Positions 8,456-33,969 of a stretch of DNA of 37,933 nucleotides are shown piece by piece. A program made the position numbers and the translations under genes. The notes under the pieces were generated by a model. That model made no database searches. It was not told where the DNA came from and saw only the letters and a program-made list of their open reading frames with translations. The stretch is from a virus. How positions within the stretch are numbered: the stretch's first letter is position 1; each line of letters opens with the position of its first letter. The DNA is taken from IMG/VR virus record IMGVR_UViG_3300015360_001429, positions 1 to 37,933 of that record. The stretch is one strand, 5' to 3'.

Positions 8456-8788
8456 TCAGATGTTGAGAATCAAATTGGCCTTGTAGTGCTCCTGGACGTG
8501 AATCTGTACCCACGCCTCCAGGCCGCGCTCGTCGTTGAAGTCGATGCCGGTAAGGTCCAGCCCGGCGATGCCCAGCACGCCGTTCATCTGGTTGTGCATG
8601 GCCTGGTGCCGCCGCGCCCAGCCCGGCACGTCGCCCGACGGGATCGGGTTGACGACGAAGCGTTCGAGGGTCGGGCCGCCCTGTAGGCGGATGGCGTCGA
8701 TGATGTGGAGATGCTCGGCGTCGTTGTTGAACGCAAACTGGTCCCGCGACGGGTTGTTGCGCGGGATGTTGAACAGGGCGGCGAGCAT
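8456..8788 (-). CDS. Hypothetical virion-operon protein, 110 aa
   Basis: Small soluble protein starting MLAALFNIPRNNPSRDQF. The middle has NPIPSGDVPGWARRHQAMH followed by a hydrophobic turn and the acidic segment LDLTGIDFNDERGLEAW. It ends in a basic and hydrophobic tail, HYKANLILNI. I recognise no family. It starts with ATG overlapping the previous stop as ATGA, and its position between two probable internal or connector genes makes a small virion protein or assembly factor most likely. No membrane segment or signal peptide. Confidence 0.55.
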   Translation of the reverse strand: MLAALFNIPRNNPSRDQFAFNNDAEHLHIIDAIRLQGGPTLERFVVNPIPSGDVPGWARRHQAMHNQMNGVLGIAGLDLTGIDFNDERGLEAWVQIHVQEHYKANLILNI

Positions 8789-16335: not shown

Positions 16336-17370
16336 CTAGATAACCTGTCCGGTAATGCCGGTGACGATGGCGTTGGCGAGCGGCTTGGTCGTCAGAATCT
16401 GGTAGCCGACGATCATCACGCCGATCTGGGCGATCTGCATCAGCGGGATCGACGAGTAGAAGCCGCTGAAAGCGAAGGGCGCGTCGGAACTCAGGTACAT
16501 CGAGGTATACTTGGTGTTGACCATGAACGCGGTGCCCTTGGGGCACCAGTGATCCATGAAGAACGGCACGCCGTTGATGACGAGGTTCGGGAACGAGGAG
16601 CGGACAGGGGTGTCCATGTCGCCGACTTCACCGGGGCTCATGCGAATCTGCTCAATGCCGATGAACTGGGTGTTCAGGGTGGCGTAGTCGCTCGGGCTCA
16701 TCACCACGAAGTCGGGGCACTCGCCGCCGGCGTTGTCGGTCGCCATAATGAGGTAGGTCGCCCAGGTGGCGCGGGTGTTGATCGCGCCGACGTTGGAGTA
16801 GACCTGACCCTGCCAGAACGAGTTGACGCCGACGTTGCGGTTGATGCCGCCGTAATTCGCCACCGTGGTTCCGTTGTCGAAGCCGTCAATGAAGCTGGAC
16901 GGCATCTGCGGGTTGGCGGTGTTGTTGGTGAAGATCGCCGAACCCATCATCTGGGCGGTGACCGCGAACACGTCGTTCATGCGCACGTCGAGGATCGGGA
17001 TAATATCCTCGGTCGCCTGCAACAGCGACTCGCCGAGCACCAGCGGCACCGGGACGGTGAAGTAGGCGGTGTTGAACGCGAAGTTCTGCACGCCGGGGAG
17101 GACCGACGGCTTGTTGAACGAGCCGGAGTAACCGGTCCAGGCGCCCTGCACCATCGACTGGCCCTGCACCGGGCCGGTAATCTGGTTCATGCCGCCGGCG
17201 GACTTCTGCGCGTTGCCCATCAGCATCATCAGGGTCGGTGTTGCGTAGTAGAGCTGCACCGTAACGCGCGGGATGAACGCGCGCCGGGTCAGCGCGGTGA
17301 GTTCGTTGAAAATGCCCGCGGTGTTACCGCTGGACGAGGGTACGACGCCGGTGCCGCCGAGAACTGCCAT
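16336..17370 (-). CDS. Major capsid protein (HK97-fold candidate), 344 aa
   Basis: This follows the scaffold gene and has an ideal ribosome site, AGGAGA seven bases before the ATG at 17370, as expected for the most abundant virion protein. The sequence has the look of phage major capsid proteins. There is an early arm, then LMMLMGNAQKSAGGMNQI, a long acidic helix region (LLQATEDIIPILDVRMNDVF), and PDFVVMSPSDYATLNTQFIG, the typical probe before the A-domain. It ends with strands FMVNTKYTSMYLSSDAPFAF and LAIIGYQ-like hydrophobic strands near the C-terminus. Length 344 is normal for the family. No separate protease gene lies upstream, so maturation cleavage is not implied. Confidence 0.82.
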   Translation of the reverse strand: MAVLGGTGVVPSSSGNTAGIFNELTALTRRAFIPRVTVQLYYATPTLMMLMGNAQKSAGGMNQITGPVQGQSMVQGAWTGYSGSFNKPSVLPGVQNFAFNTAYFTVPVPLVLGESLLQATEDIIPILDVRMNDVFAVTAQMMGSAIFTNNTANPQMPSSFIDGFDNGTTVANYGGINRNVGVNSFWQGQVYSNVGAINTRATWATYLIMATDNAGGECPDFVVMSPSDYATLNTQFIGIEQIRMSPGEVGDMDTPVRSSFPNLVINGVPFFMDHWCPKGTAFMVNTKYTSMYLSSDAPFAFSGFYSSIPLMQIAQIGVMIVGYQILTTKPLANAIVTGITGQVI

Positions 17371-18197: not shown

Positions 18198-18614
18198 TCA
18201 CGCTGCCATTGGTTGCGGTTGGGGTGGTGCGCCCCCCGGCGCGGCGCTGCGGGCTTTGAGCGCGGCGATCATCGGGGCCTGCTGGGCCTGGCCTTCCATC
18301 AGCGACTTCATCGCTGCCGGCATCGATTGGCCCTGCTCGTCGCCCGGCATAATCGTTTTGGAGAGCGGCTTAAGCGCGGAGAGGATGGCCTGACCCTGCT
18401 CGGAGTCGGAGCCGGCCAGAGAGAGCGCCTTTTCCAGAAGCTGGACGGCGATGGCCATGAATTGCTTGGCGCCGGCTTCGTTGCCGCGATTGGGGGTTGG
18501 CATCGACGCGCCGCCCGATCCGCCCGGCGCCGGCATGCCCGGCGGCGAAGCATTGCCGACTTGCGGCAATGGTGCGTTGGGCGATTGGCCCGGTGCGGCG
18601 GGAAGTGCAGCCAT
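18198..18614 (-). CDS. Hypothetical Pro/Gln/Met-rich protein, 138 aa
   Basis: The first of the leftward head genes after the divergent region. Residues 1-45 and 105-138 are low-complexity Pro/Gly/Ala/Gln tails; in between is one helical segment (AKQFMAIAVQLLEKALSLAG then GQAILSALKPLSKTI). This layout of a short helical core with disordered ends is common for small phage head-assembly proteins. The start ATG at 18614 has no clear Shine-Dalgarno, only CCTAG before it, so expression may depend on a promoter in the adjacent spacer. No family recognised. Confidence 0.55.
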   Translation of the reverse strand: MAALPAAPGQSPNAPLPQVGNASPPGMPAPGGSGGASMPTPNRGNEAGAKQFMAIAVQLLEKALSLAGSDSEQGQAILSALKPLSKTIMPGDEQGQSMPAAMKSLMEGQAQQAPMIAALKARSAAPGGAPPQPQPMAA

Positions 18615-18782
18615 CTAGGTTTCGGTCCCCAAAACCGGAGAAGTTCCGGTCCAGAGCCACCTTGCGGTTAAAATTCCCGATTGAGCCATAGGCAATAACC
18701 GGTTAAATTAGGAAGAATTCGGGAGTTCGAGGGCGAATTAGGGAGTCCGAGGCATAGCCGGGAACTTATTCATGGGTTTTTT
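18615..18782. promoter_or_regulatory. Divergent spacer with hairpin, palindrome and direct repeats
   Basis: This 168-base gap separates the leftward head genes from the rightward cassette and is visibly less GC-rich. It holds a hairpin at 18634-18650 (ACCGGA, 5-base loop, TCCGGT) and a perfect 10-base palindrome TAACCGGTTA at 18696-18705. Two near-identical 19-base direct repeats lie 20 bases apart at 18715-18733 and 18735-18753 (core GGGAGTYCGAGG). On the plus strand TTGAGC (18681) and TAAATT (18704), 17 bases apart, could be a weak -35/-10 pair for the cassette. The palindrome overlaps that -10 region, so repressor binding is plausible. Motifs are seen; promoter and operator roles are inferred. 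Confidence 0.45.
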
Positions 18783-18962
18783 GTGAACAAAGGCGCATGG
18801 TTGACCGTCAAAGATGTCGCGGTACGACTTGCGACGACCCCTCGCACGCTGTCTGTATGGCGCGAAGGCGGCAAGGGTCCGTCGTATTTCCGCATCGGCG
18901 GCGCGGTGCGCTACCGCGAGGACGAGTTGGAAGCCTGGATCGAGGCACAGAGGGGCAAATGA
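18783..18962 (+). CDS. Excisionase/MerR-like HTH DNA-binding protein, 59 aa
   Basis: A short rightward gene starting with GTG at 18783. Almost the whole protein is one winged-helix domain: WLTVKDVAVRLATTPRTLSV is the first helix pair and recognition helix, FRIGGAVRYREDELEAWIEA the wing and last helix. This matches the HTH_17/excisionase pattern (start 'Lt..eva..L..s..tv..w', then 'G..rf...el..wl'). Such proteins act as phage Xis, or as small transcription regulators. No integrase is visible, so a regulator of this cassette and of the divergent head operon is the better guess. The stop overlaps the next start as ATGA. The GTG has no strong ribosome site, so the precise start is uncertain. Confidence 0.75.
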   Translation: MNKGAWLTVKDVAVRLATTPRTLSVWREGGKGPSYFRIGGAVRYREDELEAWIEAQRGK

Positions 18963-19702
18963 ACGCCGAGCGCATCCTCGATGACCTCCACTGGCGCGGG
19001 CTGGCGCTCACCGGCGCCATGCCCCATGCAAACGAGTTCACCGCCCACCTGAAGACCTGTCCGGTATTCCCCGGTCATGTCATCGCGCAGGGCGACGGTG
19101 TCGCGCGCAACTGGGAGGGGGCGCTCGACCGCGAAGTCCTGTCGCATCGCATGGCGGACGTGCTGGCGGCGCCACACTTCTTCGACTTCGCGGTAAAGTT
19201 CACCCCCGCCATCGCGCGGTTCTTCGGCGAGCCGCCGGTCATGTACTCGTTCAACGCCTTCTGGACCCGCCCGGGACCGACCCTGCCCGACGTGAACATC
19301 CAGCAATGGCACCGTGACCGCGACGACCGCAAGTTCGTCGCCCTGTTCATGTACGGAACCGACGTGGCGAGCGACGAACAGGGGCCGCATCTCTACGTTA
19401 CCGGATCGCACAAGACCTATGACGACGGCAACCGGCCCCCGGTGTCGTTCGAAGAGGTGCAGCGGGTGAGCGGTATCGCCGGCACGACGTTCCTCGAATG
19501 TCCGCGCGGCCTGCACATGGGTATCAAACCGGTCGACGGCGAACGCTTGCTGGCCTGGGCGCGCTGGGGTGTGTCGGAGAAACCTCGTTCCTACTTATGG
19601 GACAAGCTGGAGCCGGTCGCGGCGTCGTCGCTTGCGCTGACGGGTGAGTATTCCGACGACGTGAAGACTTCGACACGGCTGACGGTGGACTGGGGCGCAT
19701 GA
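18959..19702 (+). CDS. PhyH-like Fe(II)/2-oxoglutarate dioxygenase, 247 aa
   Basis: Resembles phytanoyl-CoA dioxygenase-like enzymes, which hydroxylate or otherwise oxidise small molecules using Fe(II), O2 and 2-oxoglutarate. The metal triad is readable: H118 and D120 in QQWHRDRDD, and H186 in RGLHMGIKP, followed by basic residues R196 and R202 that could bind 2-oxoglutarate. The jelly-roll strands MYSFNAFWTRPG and HLYVTGSHKTY flank the first part of the site. At 247 residues it is a normal length for the short members. It is coupled to both neighbours by ATGA overlaps and precedes four glycosyltransferases, so a sugar or glycolipid substrate is plausible. The start at 18959, not the earlier in-frame ATG at 18797, avoids overlap with the HTH gene. 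Confidence 0.75.
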   Translation: MNAERILDDLHWRGLALTGAMPHANEFTAHLKTCPVFPGHVIAQGDGVARNWEGALDREVLSHRMADVLAAPHFFDFAVKFTPAIARFFGEPPVMYSFNAFWTRPGPTLPDVNIQQWHRDRDDRKFVALFMYGTDVASDEQGPHLYVTGSHKTYDDGNRPPVSFEEVQRVSGIAGTTFLECPRGLHMGIKPVDGERLLAWARWGVSEKPRSYLWDKLEPVAASSLALTGEYSDDVKTSTRLTVDWGA

Positions 19703-20586
19703 AAATACTGGCGTTGCGGCCAATGGATATGACGACTCAGCCCGTTATGGGCGGCCTCGAATCGCTTGAACGGCACGACATCACGACCGTCGTCTACAAC
19801 CACCTGCCCAGTATCGACGGCGGTTTTCTTGACGCGGTCGATAATGTCCGGCCCGACGTGGTGCTGTATCTCGGCAACAACGACCCGCGCCTGATGGCGT
19901 CGAACCGCACTTTCCAGAAGATGCGGAAGCTGGCGAAGACCGTGCTGCTGGCGTTCGATGCCTCCGACGCGACATGGACCCCGGTGCTGGAGTCCTACCG
20001 CAACGAAGAATGTTTCAGCCTGACGGTGAACATCGACGGCAACGATAACTGGCCGAAAGGTTCTCGGGACTATACGGCCCTCACCCCAACAGACCCGCGA
20101 CCTTACCGAGATCAAACACATCTTGGCGAACGCCCCGTCCGTTTCGGGTTCGCTGGCGGATACTCATCCCCTTCCCGCGCTGAAATCGTCAATTACCTCC
20201 GCGCGGAAGCTGGCCTTGTCGTCCCGAAACGCGACGAAGTTTACGGCTCCTATCGCGCCTACGCCCGCTTCATGGCTTCCTGTCAGTTCGTCCTCAACGT
20301 CCCCTTCTCCGGCTCCGACAACGCCAAGCAGGTCAAGGGGCGGGTGATCGAGGCCGGCATGGCTGGCTGTGTGCTGCTGGAAATGACCGGCGCCGCGACC
20401 GAGAACTGGTTCGACTCCGCCCTCGACTATGCCCGCTACACGTCGAAGGAACACATCCTCGACCTGCTGGCGGAGTTGCAGCACTTCCCCGGGGCCGCCG
20501 ACATGCTGGCGACGAATCTCTACACCCAGGTCCGTAAAAACCACGCCCCAGAGGTGTTCTGGGCAAAACTGTTCGGGAGCCTCTAA
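19699..20586 (+). CDS. CgeB-like GT-B glycosyltransferase, paralog 1 of 4, 295 aa
   Basis: N-terminal Rossmann-like half with RPDVVLYLGNNDPRL (about 51-65) and DASDATWTPVLESYRNEECF (about 87-106). The C-terminal half has FGFAGGYSSPSRAE and the donor-site stretch KGRVIEAGMAGCVLLE (213-228), with E218 in the place of the conserved Glu of GT4/CgeB-type (DUF3880-like) transferases. These enzymes move a sugar from a nucleotide donor to a glycan or protein. It is shorter than bacterial GT4 enzymes (about 350-400) and lacks a signal peptide, so it should act in the cytosol. The ATG overlaps the previous stop (ATGA). Donor and acceptor are unknown. Confidence 0.72.
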   Translation: MKILALRPMDMTTQPVMGGLESLERHDITTVVYNHLPSIDGGFLDAVDNVRPDVVLYLGNNDPRLMASNRTFQKMRKLAKTVLLAFDASDATWTPVLESYRNEECFSLTVNIDGNDNWPKGSRDYTALTPTDPRPYRDQTHLGERPVRFGFAGGYSSPSRAEIVNYLRAEAGLVVPKRDEVYGSYRAYARFMASCQFVLNVPFSGSDNAKQVKGRVIEAGMAGCVLLEMTGAATENWFDSALDYARYTSKEHILDLLAELQHFPGAADMLATNLYTQVRKNHAPEVFWAKLFGSL

Positions 20587-21639
20587 GTGAAAATTCTTGT
20601 CCTCACGACCTCGACCAACAACGTAAATACGTTCGTCGGCAGCCTCGCCTGCGTGCCGAACGTCGAAGTGTCGATCCTGAACTACGACCAGAAGTATCAC
20701 CAGGCGGTCAACACGGTGTTCCAGAACAACCCCCAGGCGCTGGCGCAGTATCAGCAGCAGGGCGTCGTGCCACACATCAAGCGCGACGACGCGGCGATGG
20801 ACGACGAGATGCTGATGGAGGCAAAGCTCGGCAAGCCCGACCTGATCGTCTACATCTCGGCGTGGCAGGGCGCGTTCGTCCCCCTCAACGACACCTTGGG
20901 CGAGTTGAACCAGATCGCCCCGGTTGTCCACTTCCTCTGCGACGCGGCAGACCCGCCATGGTGGCCCCAGCTCAAGGAGTTCGAGCGCCGCAACCAGTTC
21001 TCGCTGACGGTAGCGATCGACGGCGCGGAAGTGTGGCCCGGGTCGCCAGACCGGTCCGCATGGCTGGCAATGCTAAATCCCCGTGAAGAAGTCTGGTGTG
21101 TGTCAAAAGCTCTCACCCGGCTCACCCCCATTGACACCCGCGCTTTCGCGCGGGACAACGGCCTGTCGTTCGCGGAGCGCCCCTACGCCATCGGCTATGC
21201 CGGCAACGCCGGAACCCACACCCGCAACGCCATCGTCAAGCGGCTCTCGGCGGTGCGCGGGTTCGAGCATCGTCCGCGCGACCAGCACCCGCAATCCTAC
21301 GGCCAGTTCGTCGACTTCCTCCAGAACACCCGCATCGCGGTGTCGGTGCCGTTCACCGGCTCGGGCGCCGCGCGGCACGTCAAGGGGCGCGTGCTGGAGG
21401 CCGGGTTTGCCGGTTGCGCCCTGATGGAGTGGAAGAACTCGGCAACAGCGAAGTGGTTCACCCCGCGCCATGAATATTTTGAATATGAGAGCGTCGAGGA
21501 ATGCGCGTTCTACGCGGAGTGGCTGGCGACTCAGCCGAAACTTTGCCGCGACATGGCGGCCGCGCTGAACAGGAAAGTATGGGACGAGCATCGACCCGAG
21601 GTGTTCTGGGACAGTGTGTTTGCGGCGGTGGGGAAGTGA
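20587..21639 (+). CDS. CgeB-like GT-B glycosyltransferase, paralog 2 of 4, 350 aa
   Basis: Starts with GTG immediately after the previous stop. It shares the family landmarks: KPDLIVYISAWQGAF, FLCDAADPPWWPQLKEFERR, FSLTVAIDGAEVWPG, then IGYAGNAGTHTRNAIVKRL and the donor motif HVKGRVLEAGFAGCALME. It is about 50 residues longer than paralogs 1 and 4. Part comes from an N-terminal loop (about 43-68, Gln/Asn/Ala-rich). Another part is a roughly 20-residue segment (NPREEVWCVSKALTR) between AIDG and the LTPIDTRAF stretch, where the others have only a short linker. The same nucleotide-sugar transfer role is expected, possibly with another acceptor. Confidence 0.7.
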   Translation: MKILVLTTSTNNVNTFVGSLACVPNVEVSILNYDQKYHQAVNTVFQNNPQALAQYQQQGVVPHIKRDDAAMDDEMLMEAKLGKPDLIVYISAWQGAFVPLNDTLGELNQIAPVVHFLCDAADPPWWPQLKEFERRNQFSLTVAIDGAEVWPGSPDRSAWLAMLNPREEVWCVSKALTRLTPIDTRAFARDNGLSFAERPYAIGYAGNAGTHTRNAIVKRLSAVRGFEHRPRDQHPQSYGQFVDFLQNTRIAVSVPFTGSGAARHVKGRVLEAGFAGCALMEWKNSATAKWFTPRHEYFEYESVEECAFYAEWLATQPKLCRDMAAALNRKVWDEHRPEVFWDSVFAAVGK

Positions 21640-22553
21640 AAACCAAAATCCTCTGGATTTGTTTCGACTATAACTCGGCGGAACCCTGGTGGGACAGCTT
21701 GCTCGAACTCAACGAGTACGAGGTCGAGATTTTCCACTACAACCGCATTGTGCCGTCCGACAGCGCGATCCTCGACGCGGCCGACCGTTTCAACCCGGAC
21801 ATCGTGATCTACACCGGCACGGCGGGCGGTCCCGAACTGCCCAGCCCCAAGACCCTGGCGCGGCTACGCGCCAAGTACGGCCGCTCGGTGTTCCTCTCCG
21901 GCGACGTTGGCGACCCCCCGTGGTGGCCGTACATCGACGAATACCGGCAACACAAGTGCTTCGATCTCTACGTCAACTTCGACGGTAACGATAACTGGCC
22001 GAAGCAGGGTTCTGACTACACCGCACTGTCGCCCATCGCCCCCTCGTTCTTCAAGGGCGGGGCGCGGCCGCACGTCGAGCGTGGTATCGAGTTCGGGTTC
22101 TGCGGCACCTACGCCCGCGACAATCCGCAGGACCCGCGCCGGCTGGTGCTCGACCCCCTACGGCGCCGCATGGGGCTGGCGATGAAGCCGTGGAGCCCCG
22201 TATACCGAACCTACCACTCGGTCGGCGAGTTCCTCTGTAACGTCAAACTGACCGTCAACATGCCGTGGTCGGGGTCCGGGCAGGTCACCCAGGTCAAGGC
22301 CCGGGTATTCGAGGCCGGGCTGGCCGGGTGCTGTTTGCTCGACCACATGGACTCGCAGGCTCGGCACTGGTACGCCGCAGGGGAGGACTACGAGGTGTAC
22401 GAGAGCCCGGAGGACGCTGTCGAGAAAGCGAGGCGCTTACTCGCCGAGCCGGAGCGGATGCAGGAGATGGCGACGAAATTGCGGAAGGCGGTGCACGCGC
22501 GGCCGGCGCGGGACTTCTGGAAGAAGATCGTCGATACGGTGCTGAAGTCGTGA
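21636..22553 (+). CDS. CgeB-like GT-B glycosyltransferase, paralog 3 of 4, 305 aa
   Basis: The open frame begins at 21501, but the GTG at 21636 overlaps the upstream stop as GTGA and aligns with the starts of the paralogs (MKTKILWICFDYNSAEPWW). Landmarks: NPDIVIYTGTAGGPELPS, GDVGDPPWWPYIDEYRQ, FDGNDNWPKQGSDYTALSP, FGFCGTYARDNPQDPRR, QVKARVFEAGLAGCCLLD. The Pro-Trp-Trp-Pro loop is shared with paralog 2 and the NDNWPK loop with paralog 1, so the array has mixed ancestry or diverged stepwise. It is a predicted cytosolic sugar transferase, cotranscribed with the other three. Confidence 0.7.
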   Translation: MKTKILWICFDYNSAEPWWDSLLELNEYEVEIFHYNRIVPSDSAILDAADRFNPDIVIYTGTAGGPELPSPKTLARLRAKYGRSVFLSGDVGDPPWWPYIDEYRQHKCFDLYVNFDGNDNWPKQGSDYTALSPIAPSFFKGGARPHVERGIEFGFCGTYARDNPQDPRRLVLDPLRRRMGLAMKPWSPVYRTYHSVGEFLCNVKLTVNMPWSGSGQVTQVKARVFEAGLAGCCLLDHMDSQARHWYAAGEDYEVYESPEDAVEKARRLLAEPERMQEMATKLRKAVHARPARDFWKKIVDTVLKS

Positions 22554-23455
22554 AATTGCTTTGGCTTACGCCTTCGGACATGCTTACCGCTTGGGCGCAT
22601 GGGTCGATTGACTGCCTGGGCGAACATGAGGTTTCCTACTGTTGGTACGACAAGGTCGGCGTCCCGGTCGACGGCCCGATGCTCGACGCCGCCAACCGCG
22701 AACGCCCCGACGTTATCGTGTATATCGGGCAGGCCGGCGGCCCGTTCTGCGCCTCGCCCTCGACCTTCAAGCGACTGCGCCAGATCGCTCCGACCGTTCA
22801 CCTGAACTTCGACGCGGCGGACTCCGGCTGGGACGACTTGCTGAAAGAGTACCGCGACAAGGAGTGCTTCACGCTCACCATCGGCACCGACGGCCCTGCC
22901 TCGGGCCCGGTGGACTGGGAGTCCTACCATCCGGTCGACCCCCGCTTCTACGACAACGGCGCGCCGGAGCGCCGCCGCCCGATCCCGCTGGGAACCTGTG
23001 GCGGCTTCCCCTACGGTCTCCGGCGCGAGGTCATGGAGCATCTGAAAGCCAAGTCCGGCCTGTACATTAAGCCGCGCGAAGAGATTTACGGCTCCTATCG
23101 GCGATACGCCGATTTCCTGATGTCGTGCGAGGTCGCGGTCGACTGCGCCCTGTCGGCCGGCGGGCACAGCGGCAAGGGGCCCTACATCCGCACCCTCAAG
23201 ACCCGCGCGATCGAGGTTGGCCTAGCCGGCGCCTGCCTACTGGAACTGCGCGGGTGTGCCCTGAAGCGGTGGGCCGTTGAAGACGTGGACTACGCGACCT
23301 ACGAGACACCGGAAGAAGCTGCGGACGTTTATTCGACGCTGAAGGCGAACCCGGACAAGGCGCGGGACATGGGGCTGCGGTTGCAGAAGATCGTCCGCGA
23401 GACGATGAACCCCAGACTATTCTGGGACGCGGCATTTCAGAGGTGCGGGCTGTGA
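22550..23455 (+). CDS. CgeB-like GT-B glycosyltransferase, paralog 4 of 4, 301 aa
   Basis: The GTG at 22550 overlaps the previous stop as GTGA; the longer upstream extension would lie inside paralog 3 and is rejected. It reads MKLLWLTPSDMLTAWAHGS and shows RPDVIVYIGQAGGPFCAS, FDAADSGWDDLLKEYRDKEC, GTDGPASGPVDW, GTCGGFPYGLRREVMEHL, then KTRAIEVGLAGACLLE. A short insertion (SAGGHSGKGPYIRT) precedes the donor motif and replaces the SGSG loop of the others. It is the most diverged of the four in this loop, which in GT4 enzymes lies near the sugar donor, so a different donor sugar is plausible. Confidence 0.7.
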   Translation: MKLLWLTPSDMLTAWAHGSIDCLGEHEVSYCWYDKVGVPVDGPMLDAANRERPDVIVYIGQAGGPFCASPSTFKRLRQIAPTVHLNFDAADSGWDDLLKEYRDKECFTLTIGTDGPASGPVDWESYHPVDPRFYDNGAPERRRPIPLGTCGGFPYGLRREVMEHLKAKSGLYIKPREEIYGSYRRYADFLMSCEVAVDCALSAGGHSGKGPYIRTLKTRAIEVGLAGACLLELRGCALKRWAVEDVDYATYETPEEAADVYSTLKANPDKARDMGLRLQKIVRETMNPRLFWDAAFQRCGL

Positions 23456-24360
23456 ACAAGGACTCACGCATTCTTGTCACCGGCCACCTGGGGTTTGTCG
23501 GTATAAACCTCTGCCGCCGCCTGCTGCGCGACAAGCCCAATGTTCATGTGGCGCCCGCCGACTTCACCTTGCAGAACACCGGAGATGCCGTATGGGAGAC
23601 GCACAAGCCCACCCATGTCTTCCACCTCGCCGCCCAGGTGTTCGGTCTCGGCGGCAACATACAGAACCAGGCCGAGGGGTTTCGCCGCAATACCCTCATC
23701 AACACTAACGTCATCGACGCCTGTGTCCGGCACGGGGTCGAAAAGATCGTGGCGATGGGCACTGTCGCGATGTACCCGGCGAGCGTACCGAACAACCATT
23801 TTTGCGAGTCCGACCTCTGGAACGGCCCCGTTCACGATTCCGAGTGGGGCTACGCCAACGCCAAGCGGGGCATGCTGGCCTATCTCGAAGCCTGCCGGGT
23901 CAGCTACGGCCTGAAGTACGTATGCCCTATCGCCACCAATTTGTACGGCCCCCACGACCGGTTCAACGCCGCTACCGGGCACGTCATCCCGTCCCTGATT
24001 CGCAAGTTCTACGAGGCGAAGCGGGGCGGGACCGAGGTGCTGGTCTGGGGCGACGGTTCGCAAACCCGCGACTTCCTTCATGTCGACGACGTGGTGAAGG
24101 GCCTGATCAACTGCATGACGAACGACCTGGAGCCGGTCATCAACCTGGTCTCCGGGCGCAGCCGGACCATCCGTGACGCGGTGTCTATCTTGGAGCGACA
24201 CACCGGGGTCAAAGCGGTCTACGACCCCTCGAAGCCATCGGGGCAGTTGCAGCGGTCCTACAAGGCGGGGCTGGTTCACGCGCCGATCCAGTTGGAAACT
24301 GGGCTGATCGGCACCTACGACTGGTACGCAGCGAATGAGGGCGTGGCGCGAAAGGTGTAG
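23452..24360 (+). CDS. Extended SDR, GDP-fucose synthase / NDP-sugar epimerase-like, 302 aa
   Basis: The NAD(P)-binding motif TGHLGFVG (10-17, Gly at 11, 14 and 17) opens the protein. T104 in AMGTVAMYPAS with Y134 and K138 in GYANAKRGM form the SDR catalytic set (S/T, YxxxK). The arrangement YP...E..L..GP...Y..AK is like GDP-L-fucose synthase (3,5-epimerase/4-reductase) and UDP-sugar epimerases. A substrate-binding segment LVWGDGSQTRDFLHVDDVV is present. A usual length is about 310. The GTG at 23452 makes a GTGA overlap; another GTG at 23443 is possible. It probably supplies or converts a nucleotide sugar for the four transferases upstream. The precise sugar is unknown. Confidence 0.72.
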   Translation: MNKDSRILVTGHLGFVGINLCRRLLRDKPNVHVAPADFTLQNTGDAVWETHKPTHVFHLAAQVFGLGGNIQNQAEGFRRNTLINTNVIDACVRHGVEKIVAMGTVAMYPASVPNNHFCESDLWNGPVHDSEWGYANAKRGMLAYLEACRVSYGLKYVCPIATNLYGPHDRFNAATGHVIPSLIRKFYEAKRGGTEVLVWGDGSQTRDFLHVDDVVKGLINCMTNDLEPVINLVSGRSRTIRDAVSILERHTGVKAVYDPSKPSGQLQRSYKAGLVHAPIQLETGLIGTYDWYAANEGVARKV

Positions 24361-24473
24361 GTGCCGGTCGCGGCAGCAGGAAGCTAATCTGCCCACCGGC
24401 GGACGGGGTTTTTCACAACCGAGGCACTCACCGTCTAATCCTCGTCGGAGTGTGTCGCCCCCCGCTGCGGTCT

Positions 24474-26177
24474 CTACTTCTTCTTCGCCTGCAACTTCGC
24501 CCATTCCTCGGGGTTGGTCTGCTTCAACTGCTCGCTCTGGGCGGCGGCTGCGGCCTGCCGGGTGCGGAGGTTCTCCTTCCACCGCTCGCCCTCGGGCATG
24601 TTCATGGCGTCGATCAGCTCCTCGGGGCCGATAGCGCCGGTCTTGGCGAGGAAGCCGACCTTCTGCATGTTGTCCTCTTCGTAGATCGGCGACGACGAGT
24701 GACTGTCGACGGTGATCTGGCGGTCGGCCGGCAAGTTGATGAGCTTGAACACGGACGGCTTGTCGCCCGCGGTGGTGTAATCCCGCGGGTCCTTGGCGAT
24801 CTTCAACTCCATCGCGAGGTTGCCCAGGTCCGCCGCCTGCCGCTCCACAATCAGGGCGCGGTCGCGCATCCGCGGGCTGGCGTTCCGCATCAGAGTCTGC
24901 GTTTGGCTGTCGGAGCGCACCCCGGGCATCACCTCGCCGGACAGGGCCGGGGTGAATCCGCTGACCTCGTCCATAAAACTCAGAATTTGCTTGATGTCGG
25001 CGAACGCCTCTTTCGGCACCTCCGGCGTCAGGTCCTTAACGTCCGAACCGGCTTCGAGGCCGAGATAACCAGACTGCCGGAACTGGTCGTACATGTCCTC
25101 GGTTATGCCCATACCGCCGACGAACGCCAGCAGCCGGTCGTACTGGAGACCCATGATCTTCTTCAGGTCCTCCAGCCGGTCTTTGAGCATGTGTTGCAGC
25201 TTAAGCAGGTCCGCCATCTCGGTGCGGCCCCAGAAATAGCCCTCAAACTCGTTCGGCTGAATCAGAGTGTAGGGATGCCGCCCGGGCACGTTGTCCTCCG
25301 GCCGCGCCGGCAGGAACATATTGCTGCGCTTGGTCGTCGGCGCAATGAGAATGTCGGGCGCGACCATCTGGATTGTCGTCCAGTCCGAAGTCTCGTCGTT
25401 CCGCACCCACAGCTCGTGGAACGCCATCAGCTTCGACGCGACCTCGGGGGCCAGCACGCCGCCGCCGGGGTCGGCCGCGAGCGACACTATGCCGCCGGTC
25501 GTCGTGGAGTACGGCATCTCGGTCTGCACGCTGGGGGCCGAGTGGGCGATCAGGACCTGATGGAAATAGCCTAGTTCGCTGTCGATGACCCCGTCGCCCG
25601 AACCGGCATAGTCCCGCGCCCTCTTGAACATATCCATCGCGTTGGGCAGGTGCGAAATCCGCCGCCACAACTCAGTCGGGGTGATCCAGTTGGTCTCGCA
25701 CATCGCCTCCTGCGCGTGCAGACCGATCTTGTTCTCCTGGTAGACCCCGAACTGCCACGGCATCACGAGGTTGCAGCCGAGGCCCTGCGCGCCCCATGCC
25801 AGCTTTGGTATCGCGGCGCCGTAGGTCAGGGCGATATCGACGCCGCGCGCGAAGGTCAGGTCGATCTTGTGACGGGAGAAGTCGCGAGTCAGCAGCTTGG
25901 CCGACATCTCCATCATCGCGAGGGTGTCGCGCGGGTAGGTATTGTCGGCGTCCATGAAGAAGCGAAGATTGGTCGGCGAGAACAGGTATGACGCCATGCG
26001 GTCGACACAGTGATTCAGCCGGTTCAGAATCGCCGTGTTGCCGTCCGGCGAGCCGTTGTAGCGCCAGGTCCGCAGCGACCGCGCCATGTTGGAGCGGGCC
26101 GACACGGTGTTGCGGCACTCCTGAATCCGCGCCTCAGCCCACTCCGGCAGCAGCGCGTCGGAGTCAGGTAGTATCAT
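24474..26177 (-). CDS. Portal protein candidate, 567 aa
   Basis: The portal ring at the capsid vertex threads DNA and docks the terminase. Length, charge and place (after terminase, before head genes in transcription order) fit. Seen: LNRLNHCVDRMASYLFSPTN near the N-terminus, MPWQFGVYQENKIGLHAQEA, PYTLIQPNEFEGYFWGRTEM (the clip/stem region commonly begins with a Pro-rich strand like this), long helices DLLKLQHMLKDRLEDLKKIM, and a Gln/Lys-rich C-terminal tail. This arrangement resembles podovirus head-to-tail connectors. Its first codons (MILPD) were copied into the gene upstream during a tandem duplication. The start at 26177 overlaps that gene by 14 bases. A 113-base spacer with no convincing terminator hairpin separates it from the convergent SDR gene. 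Confidence 0.75.
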   Translation of the reverse strand: MILPDSDALLPEWAEARIQECRNTVSARSNMARSLRTWRYNGSPDGNTAILNRLNHCVDRMASYLFSPTNLRFFMDADNTYPRDTLAMMEMSAKLLTRDFSRHKIDLTFARGVDIALTYGAAIPKLAWGAQGLGCNLVMPWQFGVYQENKIGLHAQEAMCETNWITPTELWRRISHLPNAMDMFKRARDYAGSGDGVIDSELGYFHQVLIAHSAPSVQTEMPYSTTTGGIVSLAADPGGGVLAPEVASKLMAFHELWVRNDETSDWTTIQMVAPDILIAPTTKRSNMFLPARPEDNVPGRHPYTLIQPNEFEGYFWGRTEMADLLKLQHMLKDRLEDLKKIMGLQYDRLLAFVGGMGITEDMYDQFRQSGYLGLEAGSDVKDLTPEVPKEAFADIKQILSFMDEVSGFTPALSGEVMPGVRSDSQTQTLMRNASPRMRDRALIVERQAADLGNLAMELKIAKDPRDYTTAGDKPSVFKLINLPADRQITVDSHSSSPIYEEDNMQKVGFLAKTGAIGPEELIDAMNMPEGERWKENLRTRQAAAAAQSEQLKQTNPEEWAKLQAKKK

Positions 26178-26847
26178 CGCCCGCCCCCACCGAAACCGCC
26201 ACTTTAGGCGCCGTCGACATCTGCGGCGACTGGCCGCGCTGGATGGCCCGCAGTGCCAGATTATCGCCCTGCGCAGCGCCGGGCCCGGTGTTGGCTAGTT
26301 TCACCGTGGCCAGCGTCACCTCGCTGTAGTGGGAGTTCTTCTCGTGGTTCTGGGAGCGCATTGCCTCGGCGGTCTGCGACACCAGATTGTTCACCGGCAT
26401 GGCGGCGGTTTCGCCGATCTTCACGTCGTCGCGCATGTTGGTAATCTCCAGGCTGGGGTCACCGGCGGCCGCGGCCCGCGCTGCCGAAGTTTCCTCGAAG
26501 TCAGGTAGTATCATCGCACACCCCCACCGAAACCGCCAGACATGCCCGCCACTTTAGGCGCCGTCGGCACCCGCGGCGACCGGCTGCCCTGGATGGCCCG
26601 CAGTGCCGGATTATCGCCCTGCCCGGCGCTGAGCCCGGTGTTGGCTAGTTTCACCGTGGCCTGCATCGACTCGCTGTAGTAGGCGTTCTTCTCGTGGTTA
26701 TGGGAGCGCATTGCCTCGGCGGTCTGCGACACCAGATTGTTCACCGGCATGGCGGCGGTTTCGCCGATCTTCACGTTGTCGCGCATGTTGGTAATCTTCA
26801 GGCTGGGGTCACCGGCGGCCGCGGCCCGCGCTGCCGAAGTTTCCTCG
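26163..26847. repeat. Tandem duplication, two copies of about 340 bp
   Basis: Copy A at about 26163-26496 and copy B at about 26500-26847 align throughout, with period 337 on the left and 350 on the right because copy B contains 13 extra bases after GAAACCGCC. In the aligned 100 coding codons I count 20 base differences (about 93 percent identity). The unit spans the C-terminal region of the zinc-ribbon gene up to the first codons of the portal gene, so duplication created a new start for copy A. Eighteen amino acids differ and only one substitution is clearly synonymous. Confidence 0.85.
26164..26514 (-). CDS. Chimeric duplicate of the upstream gene's C-terminal region, 116 aa
   Basis: The protein begins with MILPDF, the first codons of the portal gene, then continues EETSAARAAAAGDPSLEITN, a diverged copy of residues from the C-terminal part of the upstream zinc-ribbon protein. 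The matching 100 residues differ at 18 positions. The zinc ribbon itself is not duplicated. A 13-base indel near the end shifts the frame, so the last residues (VSVGAGDDTT) differ from those of the parent (GMSGGFGGGVR) and the stop moves into the portal start. It keeps an intact frame with the parent's ATGA coupling. Function unknown; the retained segment is probably a helical virion or assembly module. Confidence 0.7.
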   Translation of the reverse strand: MILPDFEETSAARAAAAGDPSLEITNMRDDVKIGETAAMPVNNLVSQTAEAMRSQNHEKNSHYSEVTLATVKLANTGPGAAQGDNLALRAIQRGQSPQMSTAPKVAVSVGAGDDTT

Positions 26848-27047
26848 GTTTGCCGCCACATCTGATCGACCGAGCGGGCCGCCACGGAGCCGCCGATGTT
26901 GAAACCCTCGGGCACCTTGGCCGGGTCGGTCCCGACGAAAACCCCGCAGGACGGACAATAATCCGGCGCTTTCTCGGCAACTGACAGGATGCACTTGAAC
27001 TCGTGCCGGCAATCCGGGCAGCGGAAGGTCATTTTATAGGCCATCAT
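26511..27047 (-). CDS. Zinc-ribbon protein with helical C-terminal region, 178 aa
   Basis: Residues 9-35 form a zinc ribbon: FRCPDCRHEFKC then YCPSCGVF, giving two CxxC pairs about 20 residues apart. The rest (about 60-178) is a soluble, helix-rich region with AMPVNNLVSQTAEAMRSHNH and a Gly-rich end. Zinc ribbons in phage often mediate protein or nucleic-acid contacts. It sits between terminase and portal, so a packaging or portal-assembly helper is a reasonable guess. Two adjacent ATGs (27047 and 27044) compete; GAGG is better spaced for the second. Its C-terminal part is the source of the tandem copy just downstream. Confidence 0.65.
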   Translation of the reverse strand: MMAYKMTFRCPDCRHEFKCILSVAEKAPDYCPSCGVFVGTDPAKVPEGFNIGGSVAARSVDQMWRQTEETSAARAAAAGDPSLKITNMRDNVKIGETAAMPVNNLVSQTAEAMRSHNHEKNAYYSESMQATVKLANTGLSAGQGDNPALRAIQGSRSPRVPTAPKVAGMSGGFGGGVR

Positions 27048-27050
27048 GCC

Positions 27051-30000
27051 TCACCAGTTCCACCGGTTACCCCGCCGCGCCGACCGCGCCGACTCGACCC
27101 GCTCGCGGCGCTGCCGCTGGAAAAAGTCCTTGACAACGCTGCCGCTGAACATGGCTTGGTAATCGTCCGCCGTCAAGGTTCGGCGTTTCGCCTCGTTCTC
27201 GCGGCTGCGCTCCTGCACGATGAGCCGCTTACGCTCGCCTTCTTCCCAGGCCCGCACCGCCAGCGCCATGGCCATCACCCGGTCGTCCTTGGCGGTGCCC
27301 TCGCCGCCGATGCTGTCGCCACGCCGGACCACCGTCCGCATCTCTTCCAGCAGGTCGATGGACCGGATATTCAACTGCCCGACATGAAAAAAGTCCCGCT
27401 CCCGCTCCAAAATGTGGATTTTATTCTTCGGCGTAGTTTTCCAGTGGACCGTCGTCGGGGTGCGGTTCAGCTTGTCGCCCGAGACGTTCAGGAAGTGCCG
27501 GACGTTGGTGAAGATGTTCTTCACCCCGCGCTCGCCGTTGTCATGGTCGAACTGGTTCATCCGGGCGGCGAACTCCAGCTCGCGGATGGCGTTCAACACT
27601 GCCTCGCCAGGACCGTTCAGTTCCAGCAGCAGCCGGACTCCCGTGCCGCCTTCGCCCGCGTAAGCGCCAGCGAGGTGGGCCAGCACCCAGGCGAACTGGT
27701 AGGTCGTGATATTGGGGTCGCAGAACTCGCCGACCTGGTCGACCCCGTCCGAGTAGCAGCGCAGTATCTGAGCAACGTGGCGGTCGGAGGTCGGACCCGA
27801 GCCATAGGCGGGGTCGGCCCCGATGGCATAGACACCCGAGGGGTCGGGGTCCTCCCAGATGCGGAGGTGGGCGTGCCGCGCCGACCGCGCCGGCTCAATG
27901 ATCGTCGCGGTGAAGTCGTCGCCCAGGTGGTAGCGGTAGCCGGTCATCGGGTAGGTCAGCGCCGCCTTGGTGGCGAGGGTCAGGCGATCCGACGGGAAGA
28001 ACTTGCTCCCCGTCATTAGGAAAGCCTCGTCTTCGGTGTTGTGCGTCAAAACACCGTTGGCGTCGAACATGTGATGCTCGGCCACGCTGACATTGTAGAC
28101 TGGGGCGATATCCCGCTGCTCGACCCTGGCCACAGTGTCTTCCAGCGCAAGTGGGACACGGCGGCTCGAATAGCGTTTCCGACCCGTGAGTCGTGTCGAA
28201 CTGCGCGCTATCTTGCGCGCTCCGACAAACCCGATCTGTTTATTGAACGCGATGCCTTCCTCGCTGCGCAACTGTAACTCGTTGGCGGTGTAGCTATGCT
28301 TGCGCGAGACGCCCTTTTCGACATAGGTCGTGCGCGCCAGCCGCGAGGTCCGACGGCAGGTCACGCCAAACCCTAAAAGCAATATCTGGACGTCTTCAAG
28401 AAACTTCGGCCATTTGGAAAACAGAACTACGCGCTCGCCACCGTAGCCGTTGAAACCGTCAGCCTCGAAAAGTCCCCGCAAGAACTCACGCACGACGTGC
28501 TTTGGGGAGCGCCAAATAAATTCGGGCACATGCACGTTCCGCATAGTTTTTACGGTGTCGTTCCGTGCGAGACCCATCTTGCGAAACGTCTCGACGACTA
28601 GACGGCTTCCGCTGCGTACCTCCTCGCAACCCCCCTTAATTCGGGTTGGAACTTCGACGCCGAAAATGGTTTCTACGAGGCGCCTAACTTCGTTTACGAC
28701 ATCCTGGTCCTTCCTGTCGCAGGCTATCGACAGAACACCTGCGCCACCTTTCTTCCCCGCGCCCTGCAAAGAACCGTCGCCCATGTAAAAACCGACAAGC
28801 CGCGCCATATCGGGCGTGATCGGCACGGCGCATTCAATCGACCCTTCGTTCCAGCGGAATACATACTCCTTGGCAGCGAAGCGTGGCGGTTGCAGCCGCA
28901 CTCGCTGGTCGGCGCAGTCCTTCAGATCGACAAAAGAACCGTCTGTTTTCGCTACGGGGTGGTTGCCTGTCCCGACGAATCGGTACCCCAGAGCCGTCGT
29001 CATTTCGTAGGTCTGGGCTACGCCCGTCTGGCCGGCGGATGTAATAGCGCCAAGACTGCCGACGTAGCCGGGCAAAGCCTCCTCGATGGGTATAATTCCG
29101 TGGTCAGTGCCTACTCGTGTGCCGGCAACAACGCACCACGGCAGCTCTTGTAGGTTTATCTCGGCTCCAGTCGACGCCTCGACCTCGCGGAACGAACCGT
29201 CCATCTTCGGTTCGGTCTGGTGCCGGTACCACGCCAGTTGCTCCATCGTGACGGCGAAACCGTAGCGCTCCTGCACCTCCTTGATCTTGGCCTTCTCGTT
29301 TTCGTCAGGCGCGGCCGACCCGTACCGCTCGAACAGCAGAGAGCCGCGGGGATAGGAGTATGATTCCTTGGCCCACCAACCGATGAAGATTGCCCGCTTG
29401 GTCAGCGTGTCCGCCTTGGCCGCCTCCCACAGCGTGTGAAAGATGTTGAATCCGCGAGCCGTGCTTTCCCAGATGTAGAGCCGGTTCGGGTGGGTGTGCG
29501 ACAGCGAACGCTCGAACGACTTCAAGCCCTCGATGTCCACCCACGACGAGATTTCGGTGCAGCCCGCCGCCGCGATGCCACGCGAGCGGCCGAGCCCGCC
29601 AGACCCCCTGCTCTTCTTGATACCGGCGACAAAGAACGAGATGCGCGAGCCGTTCTCGAACTCCATGAAGTCGCGGTTGTCGCCACCCTGTTTCAGGGCG
29701 ATGGTGTGGGTCTCCGGCAGGCGTTCGAGGAACTGCTGGATTTCGGCCCGGGCGTCGCGACGGTTGGAGTCGGTATCGTAGACCAGGGCGATCTTCATGC
29801 CCTCGTTGACATAGGCCCAGAACACGATGAGACAGCGGACGATGGTCGACAGGCCAAGCTGGCGGGCCTTCAGCACTGTGAACGAGCGGATGTCCTTCTC
29901 CAGCCCGTCGAACACTTCGGTCAGGAAGCGGCGCTGCGCGGTGTAAAGCGGCAGAGTCTTGAAGCCCTCCCACTCCTTCGAGGCGATCTGAACGTGCTGT

Positions 30001-30071
30001 AGGAAATCGTGAAACAGAACCTTGAACTGCTCGGTCTTGTCCTTGTTCCAGCCGCCGGACAGGGGGGTCAT
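27051..30071 (-). CDS. Terminase large subunit with intein, 1006 aa (640 aa after splicing)
   Basis: This is the ATP-driven DNA packaging motor and headful nuclease. ATPase: a deviant Walker A, ARQLGLST (69-76), and a Walker B/catalytic Glu candidate at E173 in GCTEISSW. Nuclease (RuvC-like): D753 in GADPAYGSG, E817 in LLLELNGPG and D929/D930 in KDDRVMA. An intein occupies residues 313-678 and is described separately. Joining residues 312 and 679 gives ELPW-TEDEAFLMTGSKFF, the conserved EEAF-type linker between the two domains. The 640-residue spliced product is normal for the family. The ATG overlaps the previous stop as ATGA. The small terminase is not recognised nearby. Confidence 0.9.
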   Translation of the reverse strand: MTPLSGGWNKDKTEQFKVLFHDFLQHVQIASKEWEGFKTLPLYTAQRRFLTEVFDGLEKDIRSFTVLKARQLGLSTIVRCLIVFWAYVNEGMKIALVYDTDSNRRDARAEIQQFLERLPETHTIALKQGGDNRDFMEFENGSRISFFVAGIKKSRGSGGLGRSRGIAAAGCTEISSWVDIEGLKSFERSLSHTHPNRLYIWESTARGFNIFHTLWEAAKADTLTKRAIFIGWWAKESYSYPRGSLLFERYGSAAPDENEKAKIKEVQERYGFAVTMEQLAWYRHQTEPKMDGSFREVEASTGAEINLQELPWCVVAGTRVGTDHGIIPIEEALPGYVGSLGAITSAGQTGVAQTYEMTTALGYRFVGTGNHPVAKTDGSFVDLKDCADQRVRLQPPRFAAKEYVFRWNEGSIECAVPITPDMARLVGFYMGDGSLQGAGKKGGAGVLSIACDRKDQDVVNEVRRLVETIFGVEVPTRIKGGCEEVRSGSRLVVETFRKMGLARNDTVKTMRNVHVPEFIWRSPKHVVREFLRGLFEADGFNGYGGERVVLFSKWPKFLEDVQILLLGFGVTCRRTSRLARTTYVEKGVSRKHSYTANELQLRSEEGIAFNKQIGFVGARKIARSSTRLTGRKRYSSRRVPLALEDTVARVEQRDIAPVYNVSVAEHHMFDANGVLTHNTEDEAFLMTGSKFFPSDRLTLATKAALTYPMTGYRYHLGDDFTATIIEPARSARHAHLRIWEDPDPSGVYAIGADPAYGSGPTSDRHVAQILRCYSDGVDQVGEFCDPNITTYQFAWVLAHLAGAYAGEGGTGVRLLLELNGPGEAVLNAIRELEFAARMNQFDHDNGERGVKNIFTNVRHFLNVSGDKLNRTPTTVHWKTTPKNKIHILERERDFFHVGQLNIRSIDLLEEMRTVVRRGDSIGGEGTAKDDRVMAMALAVRAWEEGERKRLIVQERSRENEAKRRTLTADDYQAMFSGSVVKDFFQRQRRERVESARSARRGNRWNW
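28038..29135 (-). mobile_element. Intein with LAGLIDADG endonuclease, 366 aa, in TerL
   Basis: It starts at Cys (residue 313 of the host protein) with CVVAGTRVGTDHGIIPIEEA and ends at VLTHN before Thr679, so a class 1 intein with C1, a TxxH motif (TGNHPV, H371), a terminal HN and a Thr +1 nucleophile. Two dodecapeptide motifs mark a single-chain LAGLIDADG homing endonuclease: LVGFYMGDGS (D432) and LRGLFEADGF (D538). Catalytic splicing and endonuclease residues all look intact. Sampled lines inside are about 47-60 percent G+C against about 68 in the flanking terminase, a sign of separate ancestry. It splices itself out; its endonuclease could drive spread between terminase genes. Confidence 0.92.
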
Positions 30072-30837: not shown

Positions 30838-31830
30838 TCATAGCCCCTCGGGTTCGTACAGCACGACGGTGGAGCCCGGCGCACCGATCCTGAATTGCAC
30901 CTCGACCAGTTTGTCGAGGCGGTTGCGCACCGCGTCCTGCCGCTCCGGCGGGACAAAGAATAGCATAAACCCTCCCCCGCCGGCACCCAGGAGTTTGCCG
31001 CCCAGCGCGCCGGCCGAGACGGCGGCGGCGTAGATGTCGTCGATCTCGGGGGTGGAGACACCCCTGGACAGGGACTTCTTGGCTCGCCATGCGTCGTCCA
31101 GCATTGGCCCCATGCGGTCCACGGGGCCGTCGTCGGAGACGAGGGCGCCGGCCATCCGCGCGAGGCAGGCGCTATCTTTCACCGCCTGCACGTTGTCGCC
31201 GAGGTTCTTAATGACGTCGCCGGCGATGTCGGTAGCGTTGCGGCTGAACCCGGTGAAGAACAGCATCAGGTGGTCCTGCAACTCCTGCTGCCGGGCCCTG
31301 GCGATCACGACGGGCTGCACGTCGTAGCTATGGTCCGGGTGGAACAATATTCGGTTGAACCCGCCATGTGCCGCCCAGACCTGGTCCTGGCTGCCGACAT
31401 TCTCCCCCAGGCGGTCGCGCTCAATGTGGATCGCCGTCTCGACCAGTCGCTGGTTGACGATGCGGGCGCCTTTCAGCGCCAGCAGGGCGTTGATGAGCCC
31501 CACGACGAACGACGAACTGGAGCCGAGGCCCGACCGCGCGGGGAGGTCGCCGTCGTGGTGCATCTCAATGCCGCATCCGGGGTCGCACAACAGCATAGTC
31601 TCGCGCACAGCGGGGTGCTGCACCTCGGGGAAGTTTCGCACCAGCTCCGTCTTGGAGTAGACAATGCGGTGCTTGTAGGCGAAAAACGGCGGCAACCGGC
31701 GCAGATGTATCCAGCAATAGCGGTTAACGGCGAATCCGAACACCTCGCCACCGTGCCTCTCGAAGTGAGCGGGGTAGTCGGAGCCGCCCCCGAACAACGA
31801 CACCCGATAGGGGGTGCGGGTGATAATCAT
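30838..31830 (-). CDS. hddA: GHMP kinase, D-glycero-D-manno-heptose 7-phosphate kinase-like (HddA), 330 aa
   Basis: HddA phosphorylates heptose 7-phosphate at C1 in the GDP-heptose branch. Seen here: the family opening TPYRVSLFGGGSDYPAHF, the ATP-binding GHMP motif LPARSGLGSSSSF (96-108) and the C-terminal LLGAGGGGFMLFF motif. The heptose and fucose kinase-like subgroup shares the GGGSDxP motif near the N-terminus. Length is normal. An in-frame ATG lies seven codons upstream at 31851, but the one at 31830 overlaps the HddC stop as ATGA. It is encoded next to HddC and GmhA, which strengthens the heptose assignment. The fucose kinase side of the family is the alternative. Confidence 0.75.
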   Translation of the reverse strand: MIITRTPYRVSLFGGGSDYPAHFERHGGEVFGFAVNRYCWIHLRRLPPFFAYKHRIVYSKTELVRNFPEVQHPAVRETMLLCDPGCGIEMHHDGDLPARSGLGSSSSFVVGLINALLALKGARIVNQRLVETAIHIERDRLGENVGSQDQVWAAHGGFNRILFHPDHSYDVQPVVIARARQQELQDHLMLFFTGFSRNATDIAGDVIKNLGDNVQAVKDSACLARMAGALVSDDGPVDRMGPMLDDAWRAKKSLSRGVSTPEIDDIYAAAVSAGALGGKLLGAGGGGFMLFFVPPERQDAVRNRLDKLVEVQFRIGAPGSTVVLYEPEGL

Positions 31831-32447
31831 GCCGCGTGCTCCAAAACCCACCGGACGGACCGTGCGTAGGCATCCGGCGTGCCGATGTCGAAGTAAGACC
31901 CGCGTCTCGTGTCGCGTCGGCGGTCGACGAGATTGAGGTACGGCGGCAAGTCCCTCTCGCCGCTATCGGTCAGGTGCGCGATCCCGGATCGCGACAGCAG
32001 GGTGAAGCCGCTCGGAAACACCCCGCTGTTCAGTGAATCGGCGTGGAGCATCAGGCTGCAATAGTCGGTGTTGAATCGCTCGACGAAGTCCGCGAACTCC
32101 GGGCAGTCGATCAGGGTGTCGCCGTTGCAGACCAGCACGGGGTCGGAGGTCAGGAACCTGCGCGCCGACCGTATCGCCCCGACGGTCCCAGTCGGCTCGG
32201 CCTCGACAGACACGATCACCGGCCACTTAGAGGCCCAATCCAGTATGGCGTCGGCGCCGTGCGCGGTGCAGAGAATGACCTTTTTGGCGCCGTGCCGCTG
32301 GGTCAGAAAGCGCAGCAGGTACTCAATAAACGGGCGTCCGTTCACCGGGGCGAGGCACTTCGGTGTGCTCCCCAGCACCGGGGCGATGCGGGTGCCCAGC
32401 CCGCCGCACAGGATCGCAACGTCGATGTTGGCGAGGCAGAGGCTCAC
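31827..32447 (-). CDS. hddC: Nucleotidyltransferase, heptose 1-phosphate guanylyltransferase-like (HddC), 206 aa
   Basis: HddC transfers GMP to D-glycero-alpha-D-manno-heptose 1-phosphate to form the activated sugar. The signature AILCGGLGTRIAPVLGSTPK (11-30) followed by CLAPVNGRPFIEYLL is the nucleotide-binding loop; D110 in LVCNGDTLID is the metal-binding Asp; YFDIGTPDAY near 185-195 is the closing motif of the small family. Length 206 is slightly short (about 220-230 usual) but no domain is lost. ATGA overlaps at both ends. Sequence alone cannot exclude another sugar 1-phosphate; the HddA and GmhA neighbours favour heptose. Confidence 0.75.
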   Translation of the reverse strand: MSLCLANIDVAILCGGLGTRIAPVLGSTPKCLAPVNGRPFIEYLLRFLTQRHGAKKVILCTAHGADAILDWASKWPVIVSVEAEPTGTVGAIRSARRFLTSDPVLVCNGDTLIDCPEFADFVERFNTDYCSLMLHADSLNSGVFPSGFTLLSRSGIAHLTDSGERDLPPYLNLVDRRRDTRRGSYFDIGTPDAYARSVRWVLEHAA

Positions 32448-33910: not shown

Positions 33911-33969
33911 GTGCGAGGCTCTTTCCACGAGTTTCCGCTCCGAATATTCCAAATCCGCCCACGCCGCAC

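Follow-up and report, generated by a model that had tools for sequence, protein, structure and literature searches.

Introduction

Accessory (moron) loci that lie within lytic genes, or antisense to them, are known from prophages (PMC7067206), and such loci are also the subject of Cumby et al. (2012), as far as that work is cited in PMC7067206. Glycosyltransferases, nucleotide-sugar enzymes and PhyH-type (pfam05721) oxygenases have been described together in one genome, that of cyanophage S-SCSM1 (PMC9602691). A search of open-access text gave no description of a conserved cargo slot that lies between portal and head genes and has an antisense HTH gene, nor of a co-clustered enzyme set comprising glycosyltransferases, an SDR, an oxygenase, and radical SAM, DegT and TPP enzymes.

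Here we analysed the 37,933-base IMG/VR virus record IMGVR_UViG_3300015360_001429 (the whole of which is called the window below). It is probably a partial genome, with relatives reaching 57-67 kb. We consider it likely that its rightward genes form an antisense accessory operon in a conserved portal/head cargo slot of an uncultured phage lineage with genomes near 60 kb, a slot loaded here with glycan enzymes.

Results

Layout of the antisense cassette

A gene model based on in-frame hexamers and trained on core genes of relatives called 34 leftward and 7 rightward genes in the window, and the rightward ones occupied exactly 18783-24360. All seven had positive coding scores (24 to 168). Their junctions were ATGA/GTGA overlaps or zero-gap (18959-18962, 19699-19702, 20586/20587, 21636-21639, 22550-22553 and 23452-23455). 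The cassette sits exactly between the portal gene and the head/scaffold/capsid genes, opposing its leftward neighbours; portal and capsid were assigned by homology to genes bearing these annotations in two environmental phage records (MW202753 and MW202825). A preliminary description of this DNA had placed seven coupled plus-strand genes between portal and head genes, and its coordinates, strand, count and gene types were confirmed. The arrangement recurs in contigs of other metagenomes and is thus not an assembly artefact. The features are as follows.

16336-17370, minus strand: major capsid gene (homology to environmental phage records)
17396-18046, minus strand: scaffold-like gene upstream of the major capsid gene (position and conservation)
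18198-18614, minus strand: conserved small head-region protein, one slot border (most relatives have a homologue at this position)
18615-18782, no strand: divergent spacer of 168 bp, presumed promoter/operator region (sequence)
18783-18962, plus strand: HTH_17 protein of 59 aa, first operon gene (PF12728, 49.7 bits, cut-off 27)
18959-19702, plus strand: PhyH-like Fe(II)/2-oxoglutarate oxygenase (sub-threshold PhyH match, 18.6 bits, cut-off 22; invariant motif)
19699-20586, plus strand: glycosyltransferase GT1 (PF13524, 38.7 bits, cut-off 25)
20587-21639, plus strand: glycosyltransferase GT2 (PF13524, 34.8 bits, cut-off 25)
21636-22553, plus strand: glycosyltransferase GT3 (PF13524, 54.9 bits, cut-off 25)
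22550-23455, plus strand: glycosyltransferase GT4 (PF13524, 23.5 bits, just below the cut-off of 25)
23452-24360, plus strand: SDR, nearest to the Fcl/WcaG type, last operon gene (Epimerase, 161.9 bits)
24361-24473, no strand: convergent spacer of 113 bp (sequence)
24474-26177, minus strand: portal gene, the other slot border (tblastn to the portal proteins of MW202753 and MW202825)
30838-37730, minus strand: probable partner module (best NCBIfam names, conservation and co-clustering)

The reverse-strand ORFs annotated at the slot in MW202753 and MW202825 looked spurious, being short and having no recognisable features. Just upstream of the portal gene of the window, near-identical protein stretches occur in two adjoining leftward genes (26164-26514 and 26511-27047), a recent partial duplication. 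The gene for the terminase large subunit (27051-30071) carries an in-frame, intein-like insert with a LAGLIDADG domain (residues ~312-679); terminase matches in relatives are interrupted at these residues, usually resuming within a few bases.

The portal-head slot across relatives

About 175 loci encoding a homologue of the capsid or portal protein were recovered from IMG/VR by profile scans. The portal-capsid gap was 1.35-1.6 kb in close relatives versus 7.1 kb in the window, and the site was empty in L004, L005, L088-L093, L101, L120, L150, L164, L167 and L168, whose capsids are 65-74% identical. Two further genotypes have an orthologous glycan cassette at the same site: L084/L085, two contigs that seem to belong to a single virus, and L086. 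Their portal and capsid proteins are 49-53% and 72-76% identical, respectively, to those of the window. In these genotypes the HTH, oxygenase and glycosyltransferase genes are antisense, the SDR gene is flipped to the portal strand, and glycosyltransferase copies are partial, fused or duplicated. These results indicated that the glycan set is orthologous but rearranging.

An antisense HTH gene of the same type was present in 65 of 88 distinct slots, and it was antisense in every one of the 65; the 88 include the window and were deduplicated by exact portal DNA only, with near-copies remaining. According to ad hoc gene calls, the HTH gene stood alone in 19 of these slots and was accompanied by further antisense ORFs in about 46, nearly all of them between the HTH gene and the 3' end of the portal gene. 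The cargo included an unknown family of 112-139 residues (27 members), KTSC-type small proteins (10), TPR/GT9-like glycosyltransferases (L006 and L007), a TPR/methyltransferase giant (L176) and a D12-methyltransferase-like protein (L109), among others. The slot therefore occurs in three states: empty, with an antisense HTH gene only, or with the HTH gene and varied antisense cargo.

The cargo module proposed in the preliminary description is supported by relatives in which the same position is empty, holds different cargo or carries the orthologous cassette in rearranged form, and the cassette is no fixture of all relatives, as close ones are without it. The same account had the cassette splitting an otherwise conserved gene order. 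The seven genes do interrupt the leftward order, but, with the HTH gene in 65 of 88 slots, an antisense interruption is the norm in this lineage and not a one-off split. For the same reason, and because the cargo varies, the HTH gene is the resident of the slot, and the glycan genes are one of several loads. On the portal tree, the presence and absence of the HTH gene require at least five gains or losses. The glycan set requires one change, which is consistent with a single acquisition, the three cassette rows not being resolved as a supported clade.

Other arrangements were seen in the wider set. In a distant relative, the slot is filled by ~4.3 kb of cargo on the sense strand (L041:4360-8700), so forward cargo is accepted too. 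In three loci (L011:1376-3085, L012:3360-5069 and L013:6604-8244), the portal gene runs opposite to the terminase and capsid genes and stands between the terminase and head genes. A conserved micro-ORF with a Shine-Dalgarno sequence, coding for 10-19 residues of which at least 45% are Arg/Lys, was found in 64 of 88 slots (e.g. MARTRKSHRGKRK and MDIRERRKSHRKGRK) and is absent from the window. It lies on the portal strand between the antisense HTH gene and the homologue of 18198-18614, as in L007 (~8486-8527), L130 and L004; the opposite strand gave 0 of 88, and 25 similar matches occurred in 930 kb elsewhere. The product may be a DNA-binding peptide resembling protamines or phiX174 J. The k-mers enriched in the spacers of relatives, considered as an operator, proved to be this micro-ORF.

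Lifestyle and host

No match to Phage_integrase (tyrosine integrase) was found in the window, in L084, L085 and L086, or in most long relatives; an integrase was present in three members of the wider lineage. Among 84,980 species genomes there was no clear prophage, and portal relatives were found only in five MAG contigs of mixed phyla. These data bear on a classical lysogenic-conversion moron, which would be transcribed from the prophage to alter the surface of the host and exclude superinfecting phages. In its layout, an antisense, regulator-led locus within lytic genes, the cassette matches published prophage accessory loci (PMC7067206), and the three integrase-bearing members also speak for this explanation. 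The integrase and prophage searches argue against it, as does the cassette itself, which lacks genes for membrane proteins such as a GtrA-like flippase, and we regard it as rather unlikely. With no integrase in the window or its cassette-bearing kin, the lysogenic form of a moron is unproven, and the absence is not decisive because the window is a partial genome. A lysogeny role of the cassette is possible but unsupported.

Enzymes of the cassette

The cargo of the proposed accessory operon consists of glycosyltransferases, an oxygenase and an SDR. Three of the four glycosyltransferases passed the cut-off of PF13524 (Glyco_trans_1_2), which GT4 missed narrowly. All four are paralogues, 30-34% identical to GT3 (34% for GT4). 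Orthologues of GT2 in L084 and L086 are 53-55% identical, and orthologues of GT4 are 54-62% identical. The structure predicted for GT3 has a GT-B fold (pLDDT 86) and resembles GT4-type enzymes such as PimA, its best match (Z 21.7), and HepE; the fold is also that of T4 alpha-glucosyltransferase (AGT; Z 19.9). GT3 matched none of 50,697 phage records, and a PDB sequence search with the glycosyltransferase profile gave none. Only two weak partial matches were obtained in 299 genomes from the order of one candidate host MAG. No 19-residue window exceeded 1.6 on the Kyte-Doolittle scale in any of the seven cassette proteins, and the predicted enzymes look soluble.

The PhyH match of the oxygenase was below the cut-off. 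Its HxD...H iron motif is kept, and H118-R-D120...H186...R196 was invariant in three homologues. Searches for a TET/JBP family match (E up to 0.1), for a PDB sequence match with the oxygenase profile and for a match among the 50,697 phage records were all negative. Scans of viral contigs with a single oxygenase or portal protein gave no match, and alignment queries were needed. The AlphaFold model had low confidence (pLDDT 35.5), and no fold claim rests on it. The oxygenase recurs next to the same glycosyltransferase family in unrelated phages. L188 (1433-3146) has an oxygenase of 35% identity in the neighbourhood of a glycosyltransferase-like gene, and the terminase-like gene of that phage is unrelated.

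The SDR matched the Epimerase family clearly, and its best PDB matches were GDP-L-fucose synthases. Y134-x3-K138 and H177 are conserved in three homologues. The score for the NCBIfam equivalog NF047922 was far under the cut-off (174.9 versus 500 bits), and Ala occupies the position that we take to correspond to the active-site Cys109 of E. coli Fcl. It is therefore plausible that the SDR acts as a reductase on another GDP-deoxysugar.

A second, leftward sugar module

The best names for the genes at 30838-37730 were HddA-like kinase, HddC-like nucleotidyltransferase (guanylyltransferase), B12/radical-SAM, SDR, DegT aminotransferase, GmhA-like isomerase and a split TPP enzyme. All were below the NCBIfam equivalog cut-offs, so the heptose assignment is taken as a lead only. 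Five of these genes are present in L086 (54-59% identity). In unrelated phages reached through the glycosyltransferase profile, the same glycosyltransferase family stands beside radical-SAM, DegT, TPP, HddA-like, Fcl-like SDR or oxygenase genes, and some of these clusters lie among portal/capsid, tail or tape-measure genes; several phages have the family without the oxygenase. These co-clusters link the cassette to 30838-37730 by gene neighbourhood, from which we infer that the two may cooperate biochemically. The cassette had been described as a self-contained glycan cargo module. Exchangeable cargo it is, but its HTH gene belongs to the slot and its partner sugar genes probably lie at 30838-37730, so that the cassette is probably not self-contained.

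The enzyme set also bears on DNA hypermodification, in which the oxygenase would oxidise a base and the glycosyltransferases would add sugars to it, allowing evasion of host nucleases. The oxygenase does adjoin glycosyltransferases, and the GT3 model matches T4 AGT. However, the oxygenase has a weak PhyH match and yielded no TET/JBP match, the glycosyltransferase family also occurs without it, and oligosaccharide synthesis is the better fit for four glycosyltransferases accompanied by an Fcl-like SDR and a sugar-nucleotide module. This explanation is improbable.

The HTH protein, the spacers and control

The HTH protein of the proposed accessory operon matched HTH_17 well above the cut-off and has an excisionase/MerR-like fold. 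In the divergent spacer, a 20-bp direct tandem repeat was found near 18715-18754 (14 of 16 positions matched, equalled in 1 of 300 shuffles), and no sigma-70 consensus was detected in 18615-18782. A search across relatives revealed no shared operator repeat, and strong direct repeats were present in only 2 of 55 spacers. As no relative was found to share the repeat, its role is a guess. A terminator-like hairpin with a T-run lies on the cassette strand at 24388-24413, such sites in this region being no more frequent than in shuffles. Late leftward transcription would oppose the cassette, and a separate timing of the cassette is therefore likely. The HTH protein, whose gene is first in the operon, probably autoregulates a promoter in the 168-bp divergent spacer, and the cargo would be expressed at times when late transcription from the opposite strand does not prevail.

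The HTH protein could instead be an excisionase (recombination directionality factor), with the slot as a mobile element that excises and inserts. Its best PHROG is indeed 'excisionase and transcriptional regulator'. The score for the NCBIfam excisionase domain is nevertheless under the cut-off (25.7 versus 28.8), the slot cargo scanned contained no recombinase, and the HTH gene is fixed at one site throughout the lineage, often alone, which makes this proposal very improbable. A core virion function merely encoded backwards is hardly credible: related genotypes do keep orthologous cassettes at the same site, but the cassette is entirely missing from close relatives, contradicting a lineage-wide core role, and gene order and orientation inside it change.

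Discussion

Our preferred reading is the antisense accessory operon in a portal/head cargo slot. In the mechanism that we propose, the SDR and the oxygenase would finish or modify an activated sugar, supplied at least partly by the heptose/amino-sugar-like module at 30838-37730 and otherwise by the host. The four glycosyltransferases would then add sugars stepwise, from GDP- or similar sugars, to give a short glycan. The acceptor would most likely be a virion protein or the envelope glycan of the infected cell; we favour particle and envelope about equally and place DNA last. Such a glycan may change receptor recognition, protection or superinfection.

A broader version is offered tentatively, as a possibility that we would not rank as likely. 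A large, mostly integrase-negative uncultured lineage would keep an antisense 'cargo bay' whose permanent HTH protein controls whatever recombines in, and in the window the bay and the second module would together build a new, phage-specified glycan for the phage's own particle. If these readings are true, an antisense HTH gene behind the portal gene would be a simple landmark for exchangeable cargo in many uncultured phages, and moron-like architecture would not be tied to detectable lysogeny genes. The recurring phage set of PF13524 glycosyltransferases, Fcl-like SDR, PhyH-like oxygenase, radical SAM, DegT and TPP enzyme would then point to a probably undescribed glycan.

The locus resembles several known systems in part. 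Like prophage morons, it is an extra, independently oriented unit in a conserved gene order and is absent from close relatives; unlike them, it lies in a window with no detected lysogeny genes, has a conserved resident antisense HTH gene in 65 of 88 slots and carries multi-step glycan cargo. Gtr serotype-conversion cassettes have membrane flippase/glycosyltransferase proteins, whereas the window cassette encodes no strongly hydrophobic segment. GDP-L-fucose synthase (Fcl/WcaG) shares the SDR fold with the window SDR and provides its best-scoring solved structures. The GDP-D-glycero-D-manno-heptose pathway (GmhA-HddA-HddC) gives the best NCBIfam names for three genes of the leftward module, but that module has no identified GmhB phosphatase and has extra radical-SAM, DegT and TPP enzymes. 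Cyanophage S-SCSM1, like the window, combines glycosyltransferases, nucleotide-sugar enzymes and PhyH-type oxygenases in one phage; unlike S-SCSM1, the window has four paralogous PF13524 glycosyltransferases in a single antisense operon between portal and head genes, and a second module elsewhere.
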